Below are positions 3,425 to 8,881 of a stretch of DNA of 8,934 nucleotides, piece by piece. The position numbers and the translations under genes were made by a program. The DNA comes from an uncultured Flavobacterium sp. GTDB taxonomy: Bacteria; Bacteroidota; Bacteroidia; Flavobacteriales; Flavobacteriaceae. Numbering within the stretch: the stretch's first letter is position 1; the number at the start of each line of letters is the position of its first letter. A model generated the notes under the pieces. The model did not search any database, had not been told where the DNA came from, and saw only the letters and a list, made by a program, of their open reading frames with translations. Location of the stretch: the NCBI GenBank assembly GCA_946479395.1, contig CAMLFV010000110.1, positions 1 to 8,934 on the forward strand. Direction: 5' to 3'.

Positions 3425-3522
3425 GTTTAAAATAATTGTTTATATTTGTTATATAATTACAACATATTGTAATTTTGCAATACTTTATATAGATAATATT
3501 TAGCTATTGCTTAGAGTCTCGT

Positions 3523-3628
3523 CATTGAAAACTGGTAATTTTTGGACACACGAGATGATAAGTAGATTAGCTCACGACCATGGCGTGAGCTCACTTATCC
3601 TGTGTGTGGGTATACCAGTACCTCAATG
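3523..3628. other. Long multi-segment hairpin, possible structured RNA or recombination site
   Basis: Five nested paired segments are visible: CATTGA (3523-3528)/TCAATG (3623-3628), ACTGGTA (3531-3537)/TACCAGT (3613-3619), ACACAC (3546-3551)/GTGTGT (3602-3607), ATAAGT (3558-3563)/ACTTAT (3593-3598) and AGCTCACG (3569-3576)/CGTGAGCT (3584-3591), with terminal loop ACCATGG... These are 33 pairs with small bulges over 106 nt. I do not recognise the family. It could be a small RNA, a folded single-strand recombination site, or a non-autonomous hairpin element. Confidence 0.6.
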
Positions 3629-4295
3629 GCGGATATGTTGAGTTTCACGCCTTTTTATGCTTCTTACTCAACTTTTGATGGTTATGGTGCTGTGCGCAGG
3701 TGCCAATGTTAATAGATATTTTAACAAAGATTAAATCTAAATTTAAAAATTTATAAGGTTTTATAGCTGGTTTTAAACTCGATGTTGTAGCGCATTTTAT
3801 TAAAGTGCCAAACCGAAAAATTTTCGGAATAGCAACTAGGAGGATACTCCGTAGATAAAGCATAGTAAAGGCATGGATAGTGCATGAAATACATTTTCGG
3901 AAAAAACAGTAAAAAACAGTGGTTTATTCTAAATTTTTCGATTTAGTCAGAAAAAACGGAAAATTCAAAAATATAAAAAATGGTGGTTTAAGAAGTAAAA
4001 ACAGTTAAAGATAACAAATTTAAAATAAACCGCGGAAATACCGTGTGCAAAATTGGTTTTTGCACTATAAATGAAATTTGTTCTTGAGGAAAAATTTTAT
4101 TCATTAAACCTAATTCAGAAATCTTTTTTCTTTTGACCGCAAACCGTAAGGTTCACGGCTTCCAAGCTGTAAAATAGAGTCTGGACGTAAAAGAAACAAA
4201 CACAAGCCTATTGTAGTTTATCTACTTATTTAGAGGGGACTAAGGCGCAGTGTTCATGAGAACAAAAGTAAAATAGACATGCTCGAATAAAACTC

Positions 4296-4430
4296 CTGAG
4301 CGTCACTACTCGTGGTCGATTAACGATTTAATAGCGAAATCAAATAAACTTGCTTTTTCAAAGCTTCGGACAACATTTGATTTTGCGCTATTTTCATCGA
4401 ATCGACGCTCACTGCGTTGTGAATGCTCAG
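4296..4430. repeat. 135-bp imperfect palindrome
   Basis: Nested arms: CTGAGC (4296-4301)/GCTCAG (4425-4430), GTCGATT (4315-4321)/AATCGAC (4400-4406), ATAGCG (4331-4336)/CGCTAT (4386-4391) and AAATCAAAT (4337-4345)/ATTTGATTT (4375-4383). The inner arm is the best, with 15 pairs interrupted by one bulge. No flanking target-site duplication was noticed. A non-autonomous hairpin element is possible. Confidence 0.6.
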
Positions 4431-4493
4431 TTTTAAATTGTAGTAACTTGTATTATTGGATTTATGATTGAAAAGGGAATAGACTAACTAGGA

Positions 4494-4591
4494 GAATCTA
4501 AAAACCGACATTATAGAAAAGCCGTGAAGCGATGAATGTTTTTACACGTTAAGAACAAAATACCTGTTTGAGCGTAGCGAAATCGAAGATT
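4494..4591. repeat. Dispersed ~98-nt repeat, copy B
   Basis: The second copy of the repeat at 1164-1260, same orientation, about 86% identical by eye. It begins GAATCTAAAAACCGACATTA and ends AATCGAAGATT. Differences are scattered substitutions, so the copies have diverged for some time rather than arising from a recent duplication. Confidence 0.75.
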
Positions 4592-5183
4592 CATGAATAC
4601 ATTATTATAAAATATTAAAGAATGAATAATATTGTTTTGTTTAGTGTAAAAATATGAAGAGTAGGCTTTTTTATGGAGTCTTGAAATCAAGAGCACTTGT
4701 ATTTGTTGGTAGAATTATAATTTTTTAGCTCGAAGATTCACGAACACAAAAATAAAATAAAATCGGTGAGTAATTTTTGGTTCGTTTTGCATCAAGGTAA
4801 AATGAACAAAAGAAATTGAAAAACTGGATGTGATACTGCATCACTTGTATTGCTTTAGCGGAAGTGCAGTATGACAAAGTCGATAGCATATTGAATTTTG
4901 AATGAAAAACGAAAGAGATCTTTCATTATGTTCAAAATGACAACCAAAACAGAAAATTGTAGTAACATAAAACAAAACAAAAATGTAAAATATATGAAGA
5001 TAAATCTTACAGCTAAAAAACAATCACAACATACAAAAAGTTAGCTGCGTAAGTCACGAGCAAAGCACATAACAGCTTCTAAACCATAATAGATTAAATA
5101 TTAATATAGTTAGTTAAGTGAAGTAGTTAAACCCCTGGGAGCGTTATGTGCCGAAGCTCTGAAAGAAGTATAATCCCATAAAC

Positions 5184-5230
5184 CCAAAGCTTTTTTTGGG
5201 CTATATGGAGAAGCCCCATTTAAGCTTTGG
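5184..5230. repeat. Two-segment stem-loop
   Basis: CCAAAGCTT (5184-5192) pairs perfectly with AAGCTTTGG (5222-5230), and inside it GGGCT (5198-5202) pairs with AGCCC (5212-5216). It could act as a terminator or be another intergenic repeat; no adjacent gene shows which. Confidence 0.5.
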
Positions 5231-5631
5231 CTTTATTAAATCCGAAGTTGAACTTTAAATTGTAAGTGAAGTATAAGGTCGATAATACACGAATCTAAGC
5301 GCCATTGGCAAGAAAATGAATAGCTTGTCCCGATTTAGCGGGGTTGCCTCGCTGCATAAAGCGTAATCACATCGGCGAGCGTAGCGATGGTTTCGATGAG
5401 ATAGCTTTAAAAGCGAAAAGGTAACCGTTTGCGAGCCACGGCAAGATTAAAAAAACTTTGCTTCTTTAGTTATAAAGAAGAAGAAAACGGAATGTAATAA
5501 TCACGAATAAAGGGATTGATAATCCAGAGAGATTTATCACACCGTTCAATGCAGCTTGAACAGCGAGGATAATATATTAGATCTTTAATTGGAAAATAAT
5601 TTTAATGGATACACATATTATCATGAATATC

Positions 5632-5751
5632 CAGCCCATTAAGCCAAAGGCGTTAAAAACGTTAAATGAAACTTCGTAAAGAAATTTCGGCGCAAGGCAT
5701 TCGAAATTTTAGAAGTAAAAGCCAACGTTTAGCCTTTGGGTTGCAGGGCTG
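5632..5751. repeat. 120-bp imperfect palindrome upstream of the sigma gene
   Basis: Nested arms: CAGCCC (5632-5637)/GGGCTG (5746-5751), CCAAAGGC (5644-5651)/GCCTTTGG (5732-5739), AACGTT (5658-5663)/AACGTT (5724-5729) and AAATTTCG (5682-5689)/CGAAATTT (5702-5709). It ends 182 bp before the sigma factor ATG. It may be a repeat element or could insulate the cassette from upstream transcription. Confidence 0.6.
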
Positions 5752-5867
5752 AAAAAAGAGACTTTTTGTTACTTTTTAGTCATAAAAAGTAAAGAAGAAA
5801 AATCAAAAAACAAATTGTAATTGTAAAAACCGAATGATTTGTTAGAAACTAAATTTAAAAGTTTATA

Positions 5868-5894
5868 CCTACAAGGTTTTTAAAACCTTGCAGG
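5868..5894 (+). promoter_or_regulatory. 27-bp palindrome 39 bp before the sigma factor start
   Basis: CAAGGTTTT (5872-5880) and AAAACCTTG (5882-5890) are perfect inverted arms around one base, extended by CCT (5868-5870)/AGG (5892-5894). Near-identical AAGGTTTT/AAAACCTT palindromes are a frequent intergenic repeat in Bacteroidota. Its place in the probable leader of the sigma gene makes a regulatory or terminator role possible but unproven. Confidence 0.5.
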
Positions 5895-5933
5895 AGAGAA
5901 AACACAACTTGTATAATATTAAACCCCACTATT

Positions 5934-6680
5934 ATGCCACAACAAAACTTTGAACTACTAAAAAAAAGCGACCCTGCAGCATTAGAAAAAATTCATGCCC
6001 TATACAACAGACGGATCTTTTGGATAGGCAGAAGGATAATAGATGATGATTATGAGGTGGAAAACCTGGTACAGGATACTTTTCTAAAACTATGGGATTA
6101 CCGGGAAACCATCCAAGAGCCAATGCATATCCTTTTTTTCTTGCAATATGTTATGAAAAGATCGTGTTATTCATACCATTCAAAACCTAGGAACAAATTT
6201 TTTAGGACGGTAGGGTCATTGGAAAGCTATGAAAACTTCCAGAACTATCTTGCAGGTTACGATCCCGCTGATGTAATTGAAAACCTAAAGGATCAGGAAT
6301 CGCAACAAAAAATGTTCGATCTGATAACAAGCGTACTGCCGCTCATTAAGCCCGAACGGAAGCACCTTATCAACCTTTGTCTGAAATATGGTTTCAGATA
6401 TAAACAAATTGCGCAGGTTATGGGAAAAAATACTAAACAAACGGTAGACGAGGTAAATAGGGCAATTGAAGATATAAAGAAAATAGTTGCTTTAAGAAAC
6501 AGGAGCGAAAAGAAGTTTAAACCAAAATTGGAGCAGAACGCAGTTAGCGAAAGGCAGTCACAGGTTTTAAAACTGCGTTGTGAAAACAAACTCTCATTTG
6601 CAGCCATCGCCGAACAACTAAACCTTTCCCAAAAGCAGGTGCACGAAGAATTTATGCTAGCCTATAAGTTTGCGCAGTAG
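5934..6680 (+). CDS. ECF (sigma-E type) RNA polymerase sigma factor paired with dCas12f
   Basis: A 248-aa sigma factor. Residues ~14-82 form region 2 (DPAALEKIHALYNRRIFWIG... then YEVENLVQDTFLKLWDYRET, the polymerase-binding and -10-melting helices). Residues ~127-185 form a region 4 helix-turn-helix (IKPERKHLINLCLKYGFRYK, QIAQVMGKN). An additional C-terminal HTH follows at ~203-246 (SERQSQVLKLRCENKLSFAA, IAEQLNLSQKQV), so it is longer than a typical ECF sigma of 160-200 aa. No anti-sigma gene adjoins it; instead the Cas12f-like gene starts 31 bp downstream, implying an operon. In the reported dCas12f-sigma systems the sigma is recruited by the guide-RNA complex and needs no promoter motif; that role is inferred from context. 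The ATG at 5934 is supported by the A/T-rich leader and by the domain beginning soon after. Confidence 0.88.
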   Translation: MPQQNFELLKKSDPAALEKIHALYNRRIFWIGRRIIDDDYEVENLVQDTFLKLWDYRETIQEPMHILFFLQYVMKRSCYSYHSKPRNKFFRTVGSLESYENFQNYLAGYDPADVIENLKDQESQQKMFDLITSVLPLIKPERKHLINLCLKYGFRYKQIAQVMGKNTKQTVDEVNRAIEDIKKIVALRNRSEKKFKPKLEQNAVSERQSQVLKLRCENKLSFAAIAEQLNLSQKQVHEEFMLAYKFAQ

Positions 6681-6711
6681 CATAACATACAATTACTTTA
6701 AATCAGTTATT

Positions 6712-7806
6712 ATGAAGGAAACCATGAAACTAGCCCGGAAAATACAGATTATCATCGATCTCCCTACGAAAGAACAGCGGAAAGAGGTATGGGAAAAGCT
6801 GTACAGATGGCAGAACATATACTGCAGGGCAGCCAACCTTATAATGAGCCACCTGTATGTGCAGGCTATGATTAGAGATTTTTGTTACCTGTCCGAAGGA
6901 ATAATGTACAAGCTGGTTGATGAAAAGAAAGATCCGAACGGCATGCTGCAATGTTCGCACAGCAACAGCACATACCGCATGCTTAGCCAACGATTTAAAG
7001 GTGAGATTCCCATTAATATTCTCAGTTATCTTAATCATGAACTGATGAGTAAGTATAAAAAATGTTATATGGAGTATTTTAACGGCACGCGCTCTTTAGA
7101 CAATTTTAAACCAGATAGGGGGTTTGTGTTCGGACCGGAAGGCTTTCAGCGCCTGCAGTACAACGAAGAGAAAAAAACGTTTTGTTTTAGGTTGTTCCGC
7201 ATTCCCTTTAGTGTTTATATCAGTAAAAGATGTGCCGACAAACTTAAATGTTTGGAACAGCTTGCTAATGGTGAAGTGAAACTGTGCACCTCGCGTATCC
7301 AACTTCAAAAAGGGAAAATCTTCTGGAATCCGGTTTTTGAAAGTGCCAAAGAAGTACACTTTTTAAAAACCGAAATTGTTGCAGAAGCTTCTTTGTCGTT
7401 AGAACATCCCATTTCTGTAAGAATTGGTAAGAACCATTTACATATTGGTAACAAGGAGGAGTTTTTACACCGCAGGCTGGCAATACAGGCAGCACACAGC
7501 CGAACCAAAGCTGGGGTAACTTACTCTAGGGGTGGCCACGGAAGGGAACGCAAATTGAAGGCGCTGGACAGATTTAAAAATTTGGAAGCTAATTATGTTT
7601 CAAACCGCCTGCATGAGTATAGTCGGAGGCTGGTTGATTTTTGTGTAAAACACCAGGCAGCGACGCTAGTATTGATGGATATGCAGCAAAATTCGGAAAT
7701 AGCCAAAGACGAACAGTTTGTATTGCGTAATTGGAGTTATTACGAACTAATAAACAAAATAAGGTATAAAGCCGAAAAGGCAGGTATTGAATTGATTACT
7801 GCCTAA
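6712..7806 (+). CDS. dcas12f: Nuclease-dead, C-terminally truncated Cas12f-like RNA-guided protein
   Basis: A 364-aa protein of the Cas12f/TnpB family. The C-terminal third carries the family's layout: GRERKLKALDRFKNLEANYV (277-296), the HEYSRRLVDFCVKHQAATLV helix/strand (301-320) and LRNWSYYELINKIRYKAEKA (338-357), which in active enzymes lies between RuvC-II and the zinc finger. Catalysis is lost. The RuvC-I Asp position reads Ser227 (EASLSLEHP), the RuvC-II Glu position reads Met322 (LVLMDM), and the chain stops at GIELITA, before the CxxC zinc finger and RuvC-III Asp. It should bind guide RNA and DNA without cutting. I chose the ATG at 6712; an in-frame TTG at 6670 overlaps the sigma gene and adds no family-like residues. 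Guide RNA scaffolds begin 14 bp after the stop. By analogy it recruits the upstream sigma factor to RNA-chosen sites. TnpB-derived repressors (TldR) are the alternative, but the linked sigma favours activation. Confidence 0.88.
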   Translation: MKETMKLARKIQIIIDLPTKEQRKEVWEKLYRWQNIYCRAANLIMSHLYVQAMIRDFCYLSEGIMYKLVDEKKDPNGMLQCSHSNSTYRMLSQRFKGEIPINILSYLNHELMSKYKKCYMEYFNGTRSLDNFKPDRGFVFGPEGFQRLQYNEEKKTFCFRLFRIPFSVYISKRCADKLKCLEQLANGEVKLCTSRIQLQKGKIFWNPVFESAKEVHFLKTEIVAEASLSLEHPISVRIGKNHLHIGNKEEFLHRRLAIQAAHSRTKAGVTYSRGGHGRERKLKALDRFKNLEANYVSNRLHEYSRRLVDFCVKHQAATLVLMDMQQNSEIAKDEQFVLRNWSYYELINKIRYKAEKAGIELITA

Positions 7807-7819
7807 CAAACAATATATC

Positions 7820-7909
7820 GAGGGTGCTTGTACACCCGTGAGGTGAGGTTGTTGGCACACACTCACTGAATGCATAAAGCATATACAACTAGGAATATTA
7901 ATAAAAAAA
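7820..7909 (+). ncRNA. Guide RNA 1: 70-nt scaffold plus guide
   Basis: The scaffold spans 7820-7889. Stem 1 is GGGTG (7822-7826)/CACCC (7833-7837), stem 2 GTGAG (7843-7847)/CTCAC (7862-7866), stem 3 ATGC (7870-7873)/GCAT (7879-7882). It ends ATACAAC, like the 3' ends of Cas12f repeats. Loop 1 TTGTA (7828-7832) is complementary to TACAA (7884-7888), a possible pseudoknot next to the guide. The guide is inferred to start at 7890 with TAGGAATATTAATAAAAAAA; its true length is unknown, and the end given assumes 20 nt. It lies 14 bp after the dCas12f stop and may be processed from the same transcript. Scaffold identity with copy 2 is 63/70. Confidence 0.82.
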
Positions 7910-8033
7910 AGGCTAACCTTACAGCAAAGAGGTACAATTAATAAATAGTTTAATCGTAATCAATCACAAAGCATAGCAGATTACTGTAATGATTATTGGA
8001 CAAATGCAGAACCTGCTGTCAGTCATAATATTT

Positions 8034-8123
8034 GAGGGTGCTTGTACACCCGTAAGGTGAGGTGGTTGATCCATACTCACTGAATGCATAAGGCATATAC
8101 AACTAGAGATAGAGATATTAAAA
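8034..8123 (+). ncRNA. Guide RNA 2: 70-nt scaffold plus a different guide
   Basis: The scaffold spans 8034-8103, exactly 214 bp after copy 1, with all stems kept: GGGTG/CACCC, GTGAG (8057-8061)/CTCAC (8076-8080) and ATGC/GCAT. All seven differences from copy 1 fall in predicted loops or linkers. The inferred guide starts at 8104 with TAGAGATAGAGATATTAAAA, unlike guide 1 except for a leading TAG and an A-rich core. After the guides, similarity between units resumes at GTACA(A/G)TTAATAA (7932 and 8144). Only the guide segment therefore stands apart, as expected of a duplicated guide RNA gene that was re-targeted. The guide end is assumed. Confidence 0.82.
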
Positions 8124-8572: not shown

Positions 8573-8881
8573 TTAATAGCGCACGCGATGCTTTATCCTT
8601 ATTTTACACACCTTATCTTCAAGGTTAAAATAAAAGTTAAGGACGCATTTTTTCTTGCGTATCCAGAATTTTGGGGTATCGTAGCTCCAGGCTCCCGTAC
8701 TGTAAATGGTATTTGCTGGACCATATTTTTTTTGAAGTTCCTGCTTGCTGTAACCTATTTCCTTTTTTTGCTTGAGTATCTTATTGAGAAGGAGGAAACG
8801 GTGGCTTTTCTTGTGGTTCCAAACATAAGTTTCAACATCGTGATAGGGGTAGCCTAATAGTAAGAGTATTAACTTTATCAT
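8573..8881 (-). CDS. Small protein resembling BamE/SmpA-type domain
   Basis: A 102-aa protein read leftward, converging on the guide RNA units. It has a short hydrophobic start (MIKLILLLLG, residues 1-10), a basic middle, then GYSKQELQKKYGPA (43-56), W65-SYD, and a final strand pair VLNFYFNLEDKVCKI (80-94). A 'turn, helix, KYGPP, W.Y, F..gkV' order is typical of small BamE/SmpA/OmlA-like periplasmic or lipoprotein domains. The N-terminus is too short and lacks a lipobox Cys, so export is uncertain; it may start further upstream or be a cytosolic relative. The opposing frame on the plus strand is its shadow. Its link to the guide RNA cassette is unknown. Confidence 0.65.
   Translation of the reverse strand: MIKLILLLLGYPYHDVETYVWNHKKSHRFLLLNKILKQKKEIGYSKQELQKKYGPANTIYSTGAWSYDTPKFWIRKKKCVLNFYFNLEDKVCKIRIKHRVRY

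Follow-up and report, generated by a model that had tools for sequence, protein, structure and literature searches.

Where would a sigma factor encoded beside a nuclease-dead Cas12f (dCas12f) and two guide RNA units start transcription, and which genes would it serve? The window (the whole 8,934-nucleotide stretch of DNA analysed here) raises this question through a cassette at 5934-8119. A sequence-only reading had proposed that a sigma factor gene, a Cas12f-like gene 31 bp 3′ of it and two guide units lie together here, and all of these elements were confirmed. To our knowledge, RNA-guided activation in nature is a recent discovery whose regulons have hardly been mapped. The founding study of dCas12f–sigma systems is reportedly that of Hoffmann, Sternberg and others, 2025, and is said to give a 5′-G rule for guide sites. 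The literature that we searched, with that founding study outside its coverage, included no paper on natural dCas12f–sigma systems or on the link between leader and guide described below. We regard the cassette itself as of a described kind and the leader–guide link as the new part, and what makes this cassette interesting to us is the clade it belongs to, its pair of guides and, most of all, its leader. Coordinates are collected in Table 1.

Table 1. Cassette and leader features in the window
Feature	Position	Strand	Basis or detail
ECF-type sigma factor gene, 248 aa	5934-6680	+	Region 2, then two helix-turn-helix segments toward the C terminus
Nuclease-dead Cas12f (dCas12f) gene, 364 aa, ATG at 6712	6712-7806	+	Match to PDB 9n9c; RuvC Asp to Ser
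Guide RNA unit 1, three-hairpin scaffold	7820-7889	+	Model R1, 84.9 bits; third hairpin covaries
Guide 1, first 16 nt 3′ of scaffold, TAGGAATATTAATAAA	7890-7905	+	Length from family guides
Guide RNA unit 2, scaffold	8034-8103	+	Model R1, 83.2 bits
Guide 2, first 16 nt, TAGAGATAGAGATATT	8104-8119	+	Length from family guides
Conserved structured leader element, 5′ of cassette	3515-3646	+	Model R2, 128.6 bits; covariation; no Rfam match
Canonical-type site within leader, G + 16 nt GCGTGAGCTCACTTAT	3582-3598	+	Exact match to pattern GGYGTGRGCTYWCTTAT
TCACGCC strand and T-run, possible terminator	3645-3656	+	Alternative pairing with the site's arm
Conserved site ACCGAAAAATTTT 3′ of leader	3812-3824	+	Kept in 5/5 related loci

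Both cassette proteins match a solved RNA-guided transcription complex

Residues 2-362 of the 364 in the window dCas12f match PDB 9n9c, ‘Nuclease-deactivated Cas12f’ (E 4.7e-150; 53% identity over the structural alignment), and residues 4-246 of the 248 in the sigma factor match the sigma of the same solved complex, a protein of 261 aa (E 1.5e-80; 52% identity). The complex is represented by PDB entries 9n9c, 9n9m, 9n9o and 9n9q, under titles that include ‘RNA-guided transcription complex’ and ‘dCas12f-gRNA-DNA complex (partial R-Loop)’. Because an A. taeanensis locus (L008; L and G numbers are our handles for loci and genomes) scores 813.8 bits against 9n9c, this or a very near species is likely the source of that entry. 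The window sigma factor also matches the ECF profile TIGR02937 (E 4.9e-19), and its helix-turn-helix segments, at residues ∼139-183 and ∼204-240, both follow region 2. Curated profile scores for the Cas12f-like protein are weak (NF040570, 61.8 bits, under the curated cut-off of 100; Pfam TNB, 13.7 bits, not significant), so we take the PDB match as the decisive evidence for dCas12f; it places the protein inside the Cas12f/TnpB family, a point that the sequence-only reading had put up for checking. The predicted structure of the protein is of low confidence (pLDDT 64). Close metagenome relatives share 90% with the dCas12f and 92-99% with the sigma factor.

The claim that the nuclease residues are lost stands as well. 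A serine occupies the position of the RuvC aspartate of active Cas12f, which we take to be the catalytic residue, in all 33 aligned family rows, the window included, and the protein stops short of the C-terminal part seen in active Cas12f; the active RuvC site expected of a type V-F nuclease is absent. We scanned seven window ORFs with Pfam and NCBIfam, the remaining shorter ORFs falling outside the scan, and these seven encode no anti-sigma factor, no Cas1 or Cas2 of a type V-F CRISPR–Cas system and no transposase, including the TnpA of an IS200/IS605 TnpB element, just as had been noted earlier. Two 70-nt repeats, the first starting after 13 bases beyond the dCas12f stop codon, are the only units present in the window, which bears out the reported absence of a CRISPR array. 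A worn remnant of CRISPR type V-F or of a TnpB transposon would share the Cas12f/TnpB ancestry of the window protein; we give this explanation almost no credence, given the absence of adaptation genes and transposase among the ORFs scanned and of an array beyond the two units, and given that the dead form is conserved in 33/33 aligned rows.

The sigma factor and dCas12f genes are paired across the family

A scan of species genomes returned 233 relatives, the best 80 of which gave 79 loci; the window brings these to 80, and the 153 weaker relatives were left out of all family counts. Among these loci, from the best 80 of 233 relatives, a sigma gene lies at most 400 bp 5′ of dCas12f in 78/80, and the co-occurrence that the earlier reading had asked of related genomes is found. 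The two exceptions are L037, where the sigma gene is ∼510 bp upstream, and L077, where the contig begins at dCas12f. Viral contigs were also considered as a source of relatives, and of 55 pattern matches none proved to be a relative by tblastn.

This near-constant pairing bears on a reading in which the sigma factor is an ordinary ECF factor serving its own promoters, and dCas12f and the guides act separately, for example as a TldR-like roadblock repressor. Retention of region 2 and of region-4-like helices in the sigma factor would fit such a reading; the gene pairing argues against it, as does the RNA-guided transcription complex of relatives, which contains both sigma and dCas12f, and we consider it improbable. 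The likeness to dCas12f–sigma systems first suggested from the sequence holds for both proteins, for the gene order and for the downstream scaffold, all of which match the solved system. We conclude that the sigma factor, dCas12f and two-guide cassette, as a homologue of that complex, very probably serves to bring RNA polymerase to sites chosen by the guides and to start transcription there; gene activation by the window copy is predicted from the same homology.

A tree of the dCas12f proteins (80 rows; rooted at the midpoint for drawing only) puts the window in an eight-row Paenimyroides/Myroides clade, apart from the other 72 rows, with 100/100 support in a bootstrap that had not fully settled, which supplies the phylogenetic comparison that the first reading called for. 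When the model of the guide scaffold was run on six related genomes, four had units at two or more places; one genome, G001, carries four dCas12f genes. Because these 4/6 genomes hold several copies or unit groups, the window cassette could itself be the target of a second paralogue that carries the commonest guide of the family. In P. ummariense, a second dCas12f copy (L245) has an interrupted frame and a guide resembling the commonest one of the family.

The guide scaffolds score as intact and the window guides diverge

The scaffold covariance model R1 scores window unit 1 at 84.9 bits (E 1.7e-19) and window unit 2 at 83.2 bits (E 4.4e-19), both units being among the 51 from which the model was built; the next best match within the window reaches 10.3 bits. 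With this model of 51 units, the scaffold is found in 80/80 loci (128 units; best 80 of 233 relatives), and in the same set a pattern search finds at least two units in 25/80. Changes on both sides of a pair affect three of four pairs in the third hairpin, one of five in the first and none in the second. One locus, L003, has six guide units in tandem at a spacing of 207-213 bp (11106-12221). Behind four of these six comes a shared protein-like tail (KEVQLI.SLIVINNKAQQIT); in window unit 1 a stop interrupts this tail. The tail peptide was considered as a trace of a captured target gene and rejected: its strong matches in five genomes are those units only.

We set guide length at 16 nt because family guides agree with the leader site only to position 16. 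Both window guides are AT-rich. As 16-mers with up to two mismatches they have no target within the window, and pattern searches with them in six and five related genomes gave counts like those of a reversed control. Used as 14-mers with a 5′-G against the window and four related loci, guide 2 gave no match at up to two mismatches and guide 1 gave two, in L002 and L003, with two mismatches each. No site with a 5′-G that lies 5′ of a gene and matches the window guides was found in the window or, above chance level, in the related genomes searched, and against the window leader their best fit has 7/16 mismatches, which is chance level. For the L004/L005 guide, a search of two genomes gave no match beyond its own unit, present in one of them. 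A further conserved site, ACCGAAAAATTTT or a one-base variant of it, lies +230 (window), +308, +844, +724 and +233 from the leader site in 5/5 related loci; L001 and L002 have guides that resemble it (at L001 the 5′-G is there too), whereas the window guides do not.

These searches suit the view that the proteins are intact while the AT-rich guides have drifted until they match no site, so that this copy is heading to decay. Related loci do hold degenerate units (one each in L002, L003, L007, L070 and L073, at 40.9-48.4 bits), and the P. ummariense copy with the interrupted dCas12f frame points the same way. We nevertheless judge decay unlikely for the window, where neither ORF is interrupted, close metagenome relatives exist for both, and both scaffolds score as intact ones do; moreover, the target searches covered the window and related genomes only. 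We favor instead an intact cassette that is predicted to be RNA guided, with guides that differ from the commonest one of the family.

The commonest guide of the family agrees with a leader arm

A guide within three mismatches of GCGTGGGCTCTCTTAT stands directly, or one base, 3′ of the scaffold in 45/80 loci (best 80 of 233 relatives); we call it canonical. Nearly the same 16 nt recur in a conserved upstream stretch, where they form one arm of the leader, an element that had been overlooked in the first reading of the window. Guides agree with the leader consensus at position 16 in 41/45 and at position 17 in 1/45; only this sharp end of the agreement is independent, because the rows were selected on positions 1-16. 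Leader and canonical guide occur together in 22/80 loci (best 80 of 233 relatives), and in these the guide fits its own leader with at most 3/16 mismatches in 19/22 and at most two in 15/22 (shuffled best, 4). The other 23/45 canonical-guide loci have no leader beside the cassette.

Across genomes, a degenerate canonical pattern with at most one mismatch gave 67 matches in 26 genomes, compared to six for the reversed pattern, and 21 of the 67 start with CGCG, as guide units do. For the taeanensis-type guide, four genomes were searched: three of them contain a total of six non-self sites with one or two mismatches, each lying 259-289 bp 3′ of a leader; in the fourth, G029, no non-self site was found under three mismatches, and at three mismatches pattern and control turn up about equally often. 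In P. ummariense, canonical-type sites at L183 (2022, oriented) and L185 (2131) lack leader-like flanks and lie 417 and 355 bp 5′ of 998-aa SusC-sized genes, as if the DNA site had been retained without the RNA fold.

The window leader scores 128.6 bits against model R2 (E 1.8e-28), its copy being among the 51 in the model. Its site matches GGYGTGRGCTYWCTTAT exactly, where 0.13 matches would be expected at up to three mismatches, and its 16 nt differ from GCGTGGGCTCTCTTAT at 2/16 positions, 6 and 11. The element lies 2,288 bp 5′ of the sigma gene, and in the nearest relatives with a leader this distance is 2.4-3.5 kb. Between leader and sigma gene we found no ORF of at least 120 aa. A decayed SusC/SusD gene was looked for in the window and rejected, since the two SusD matches were at chance level (E 0.49 and 0.79) and fell outside 3700-5930.

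Other features of the window may be recorded here. A second conserved noncoding stretch at 4923-5252 is 87-96% identical in L001-L003, compared to ∼83% for the cassette genes; it contains a hairpin and T-run (∼5178-5236) and has no credible Rfam match. A dispersed noncoding repeat at 4286-4501 has two copies in L003, at 93-95% identity, and a counterpart in L004 at 91%. On the minus strand 3′ of the cassette, a 102-aa ORF (8573-8881) is conserved in L001 (12002-12310). At the left end, the gene at 10-708 is RteC-like (Pfam E 1.5e-47). Conjugative transposons are known to carry RteC, so the left part of the window may be a mobile element.

The leader is a predicted conserved RNA structure with the layout of a possible attenuator

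The leader is a structured element of ∼130 nt. Helix B pairs at all five positions in 47/48 distinct cases and does so through 30 different 5-mers, where shuffling gives a mean of 8.2 and a maximum of 16; helix D pairs in 23/42 (shuffled mean 4.5, max 11). These counts come from 51 parsed copies, one further copy being skipped. A crossing helix A, which would form a pseudoknot, is weakly supported: it pairs in 20/34 distinct cases, where shuffling gives a mean of 14.2 and a maximum of 19, and some rows are misparsed. On an alignment fitted to the model, and hence biased toward the modelled structure, changes on both sides of a pair occur in 119 cells compared to 33.9 when shuffled, while further pair types show no excess (34 compared to 32.3).

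Two pairings are open to the guide-like arm, one with its 5′ partner and the other with a strand that comes later, ahead of a T-run. A pattern search found this alternative strand in 43/52 leader copies (the pattern misses it in 9/52), and 42 of these 43 strands pair with the arm (shuffled mean 33.2, max 38). Since the arm has two alternative partners, the later one before a T-run, we infer the layout of an attenuator and refer to the leader as a putative attenuator. Rfam 15 gave no match for the leader in window 3480-3720 at E up to 5, and at gathering score it returned two tRNAs and no leader family from L010, L036, L074 and L021.

Leaders precede cassettes and SusC-type genes

One strong leader copy (at least 117 bits) lies 5′ of the cassette on the same strand in each of 44/80 loci (best 80 of 233 relatives), many of the 44 copies having been used to build R2. 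Distance to the sigma match was measured in 43 of these loci, and in 32 of them the leader ends 103-206 bp 5′ of it. In a sample of 120 family genomes, one of the two scans being run with stricter filters, the leader occurs in 23 and dCas12f (E at most 1e-40) in five, all five with a leader; in this sample the leader is not restricted to dCas12f-bearing genomes. Flavobacteriaceae account for most of its occurrences, and isolated loci were seen in Weeksellaceae (L043) and Cyclobacteriaceae (L055, L060).

Among 30 leader loci that we fetched, the first downstream ORF has at least 250 aa in 17. Twelve of these 17 ORFs were tested and 11 encode a SusC/RagA-type TonB-linked receptor (10 by Pfam, L219 by NCBIfam), the exception being that of L208; among the other five, two resemble the cassette sigma gene. 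In nine of the first 20 fetched regions a SusC-sized gene lies 476-616 bp downstream, called by size alone except at L171, where a profile confirmed SusC and the next gene is SusD-like (52.6 bits, below the cut-off of 725). Because the commonest guide agrees with a leader arm that precedes both SusC-type genes and cassettes, RNA-guided initiation at the leader is probably the usual wiring. In the clade of the window, the leader is retained and the guides differ, having probably been re-aimed.

A proposed model for RNA-guided initiation at the leader

From the solved complex and the sites described above, dCas12f with its guide RNA would open an R-loop adjoining a 5′-G, and sigma would recruit RNA polymerase. 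In the canonical wiring, initiation would fall at or just 3′ of the leader, self-activation included, and what is transcribed would be either SusC/SusD operons for uptake at the outer membrane or the cassette. Transcripts starting beyond the switching arm could no longer form the terminator, and attenuation would be bypassed. Pairing between guide and leader RNA may be an alternative to DNA targeting; we prefer DNA targeting because the R-loop has been solved. Joined into one proposal for RNA-guided transcription in Flavobacteriia, which we put forward tentatively and hold somewhat more apt to fail than to stand, the guide would be a 16-nt copy of the switching arm of an undescribed pseudoknotted attenuator, dCas12f–sigma would bind the attenuator DNA, SusC/SusD and dCas12f–sigma transcripts would start beyond the arm and lack the terminator, and the clade of the window would form a re-aimed relay. 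For the window, an attenuator kept 5′ of the cassette together with re-aimed guides would suggest a place in a relay of RNA-guided switches; the cassette, predicted to be intact and RNA guided, may in turn be controlled by a paralogue with the canonical guide.

The leader offers an explanation for the commonest guide, which agrees with the leader before SusC-type uptake genes and before the system's own genes, and it gives named sites for the mechanism, for self-activation and for the bypass of attenuation.

Comparison with known systems

In engineered CRISPR activation, a guide brings an activator to DNA by way of a dead Cas protein; the window system differs in being natural and in having a sigma factor as the partner. 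TldRs are described, in the part of the source available (PMC13418256), as TnpB-like nuclease-dead repressors. The window system resembles them in using a dead TnpB-type protein with a guide RNA in regulation and, unlike TldR as that part describes it, encodes a sigma factor alongside. The closest likeness in both proteins, gene order, dead RuvC and scaffold is to the dCas12f–sigma system of Flagellimonas/Allomuricauda taeanensis (PDB 9n9c/9n9m/9n9o/9n9q). Unlike that system, the window has two guide units, its guides are unlike the taeanensis guide and unlike the commonest guide of the family, it falls in the separate Paenimyroides/Myroides clade, and its leader stands 2.3 kb from the sigma gene rather than ∼150 bp as in the taeanensis type. 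The window copy is predicted to extend RNA-guided activation to a separate clade with multiple guide units and differing guides.
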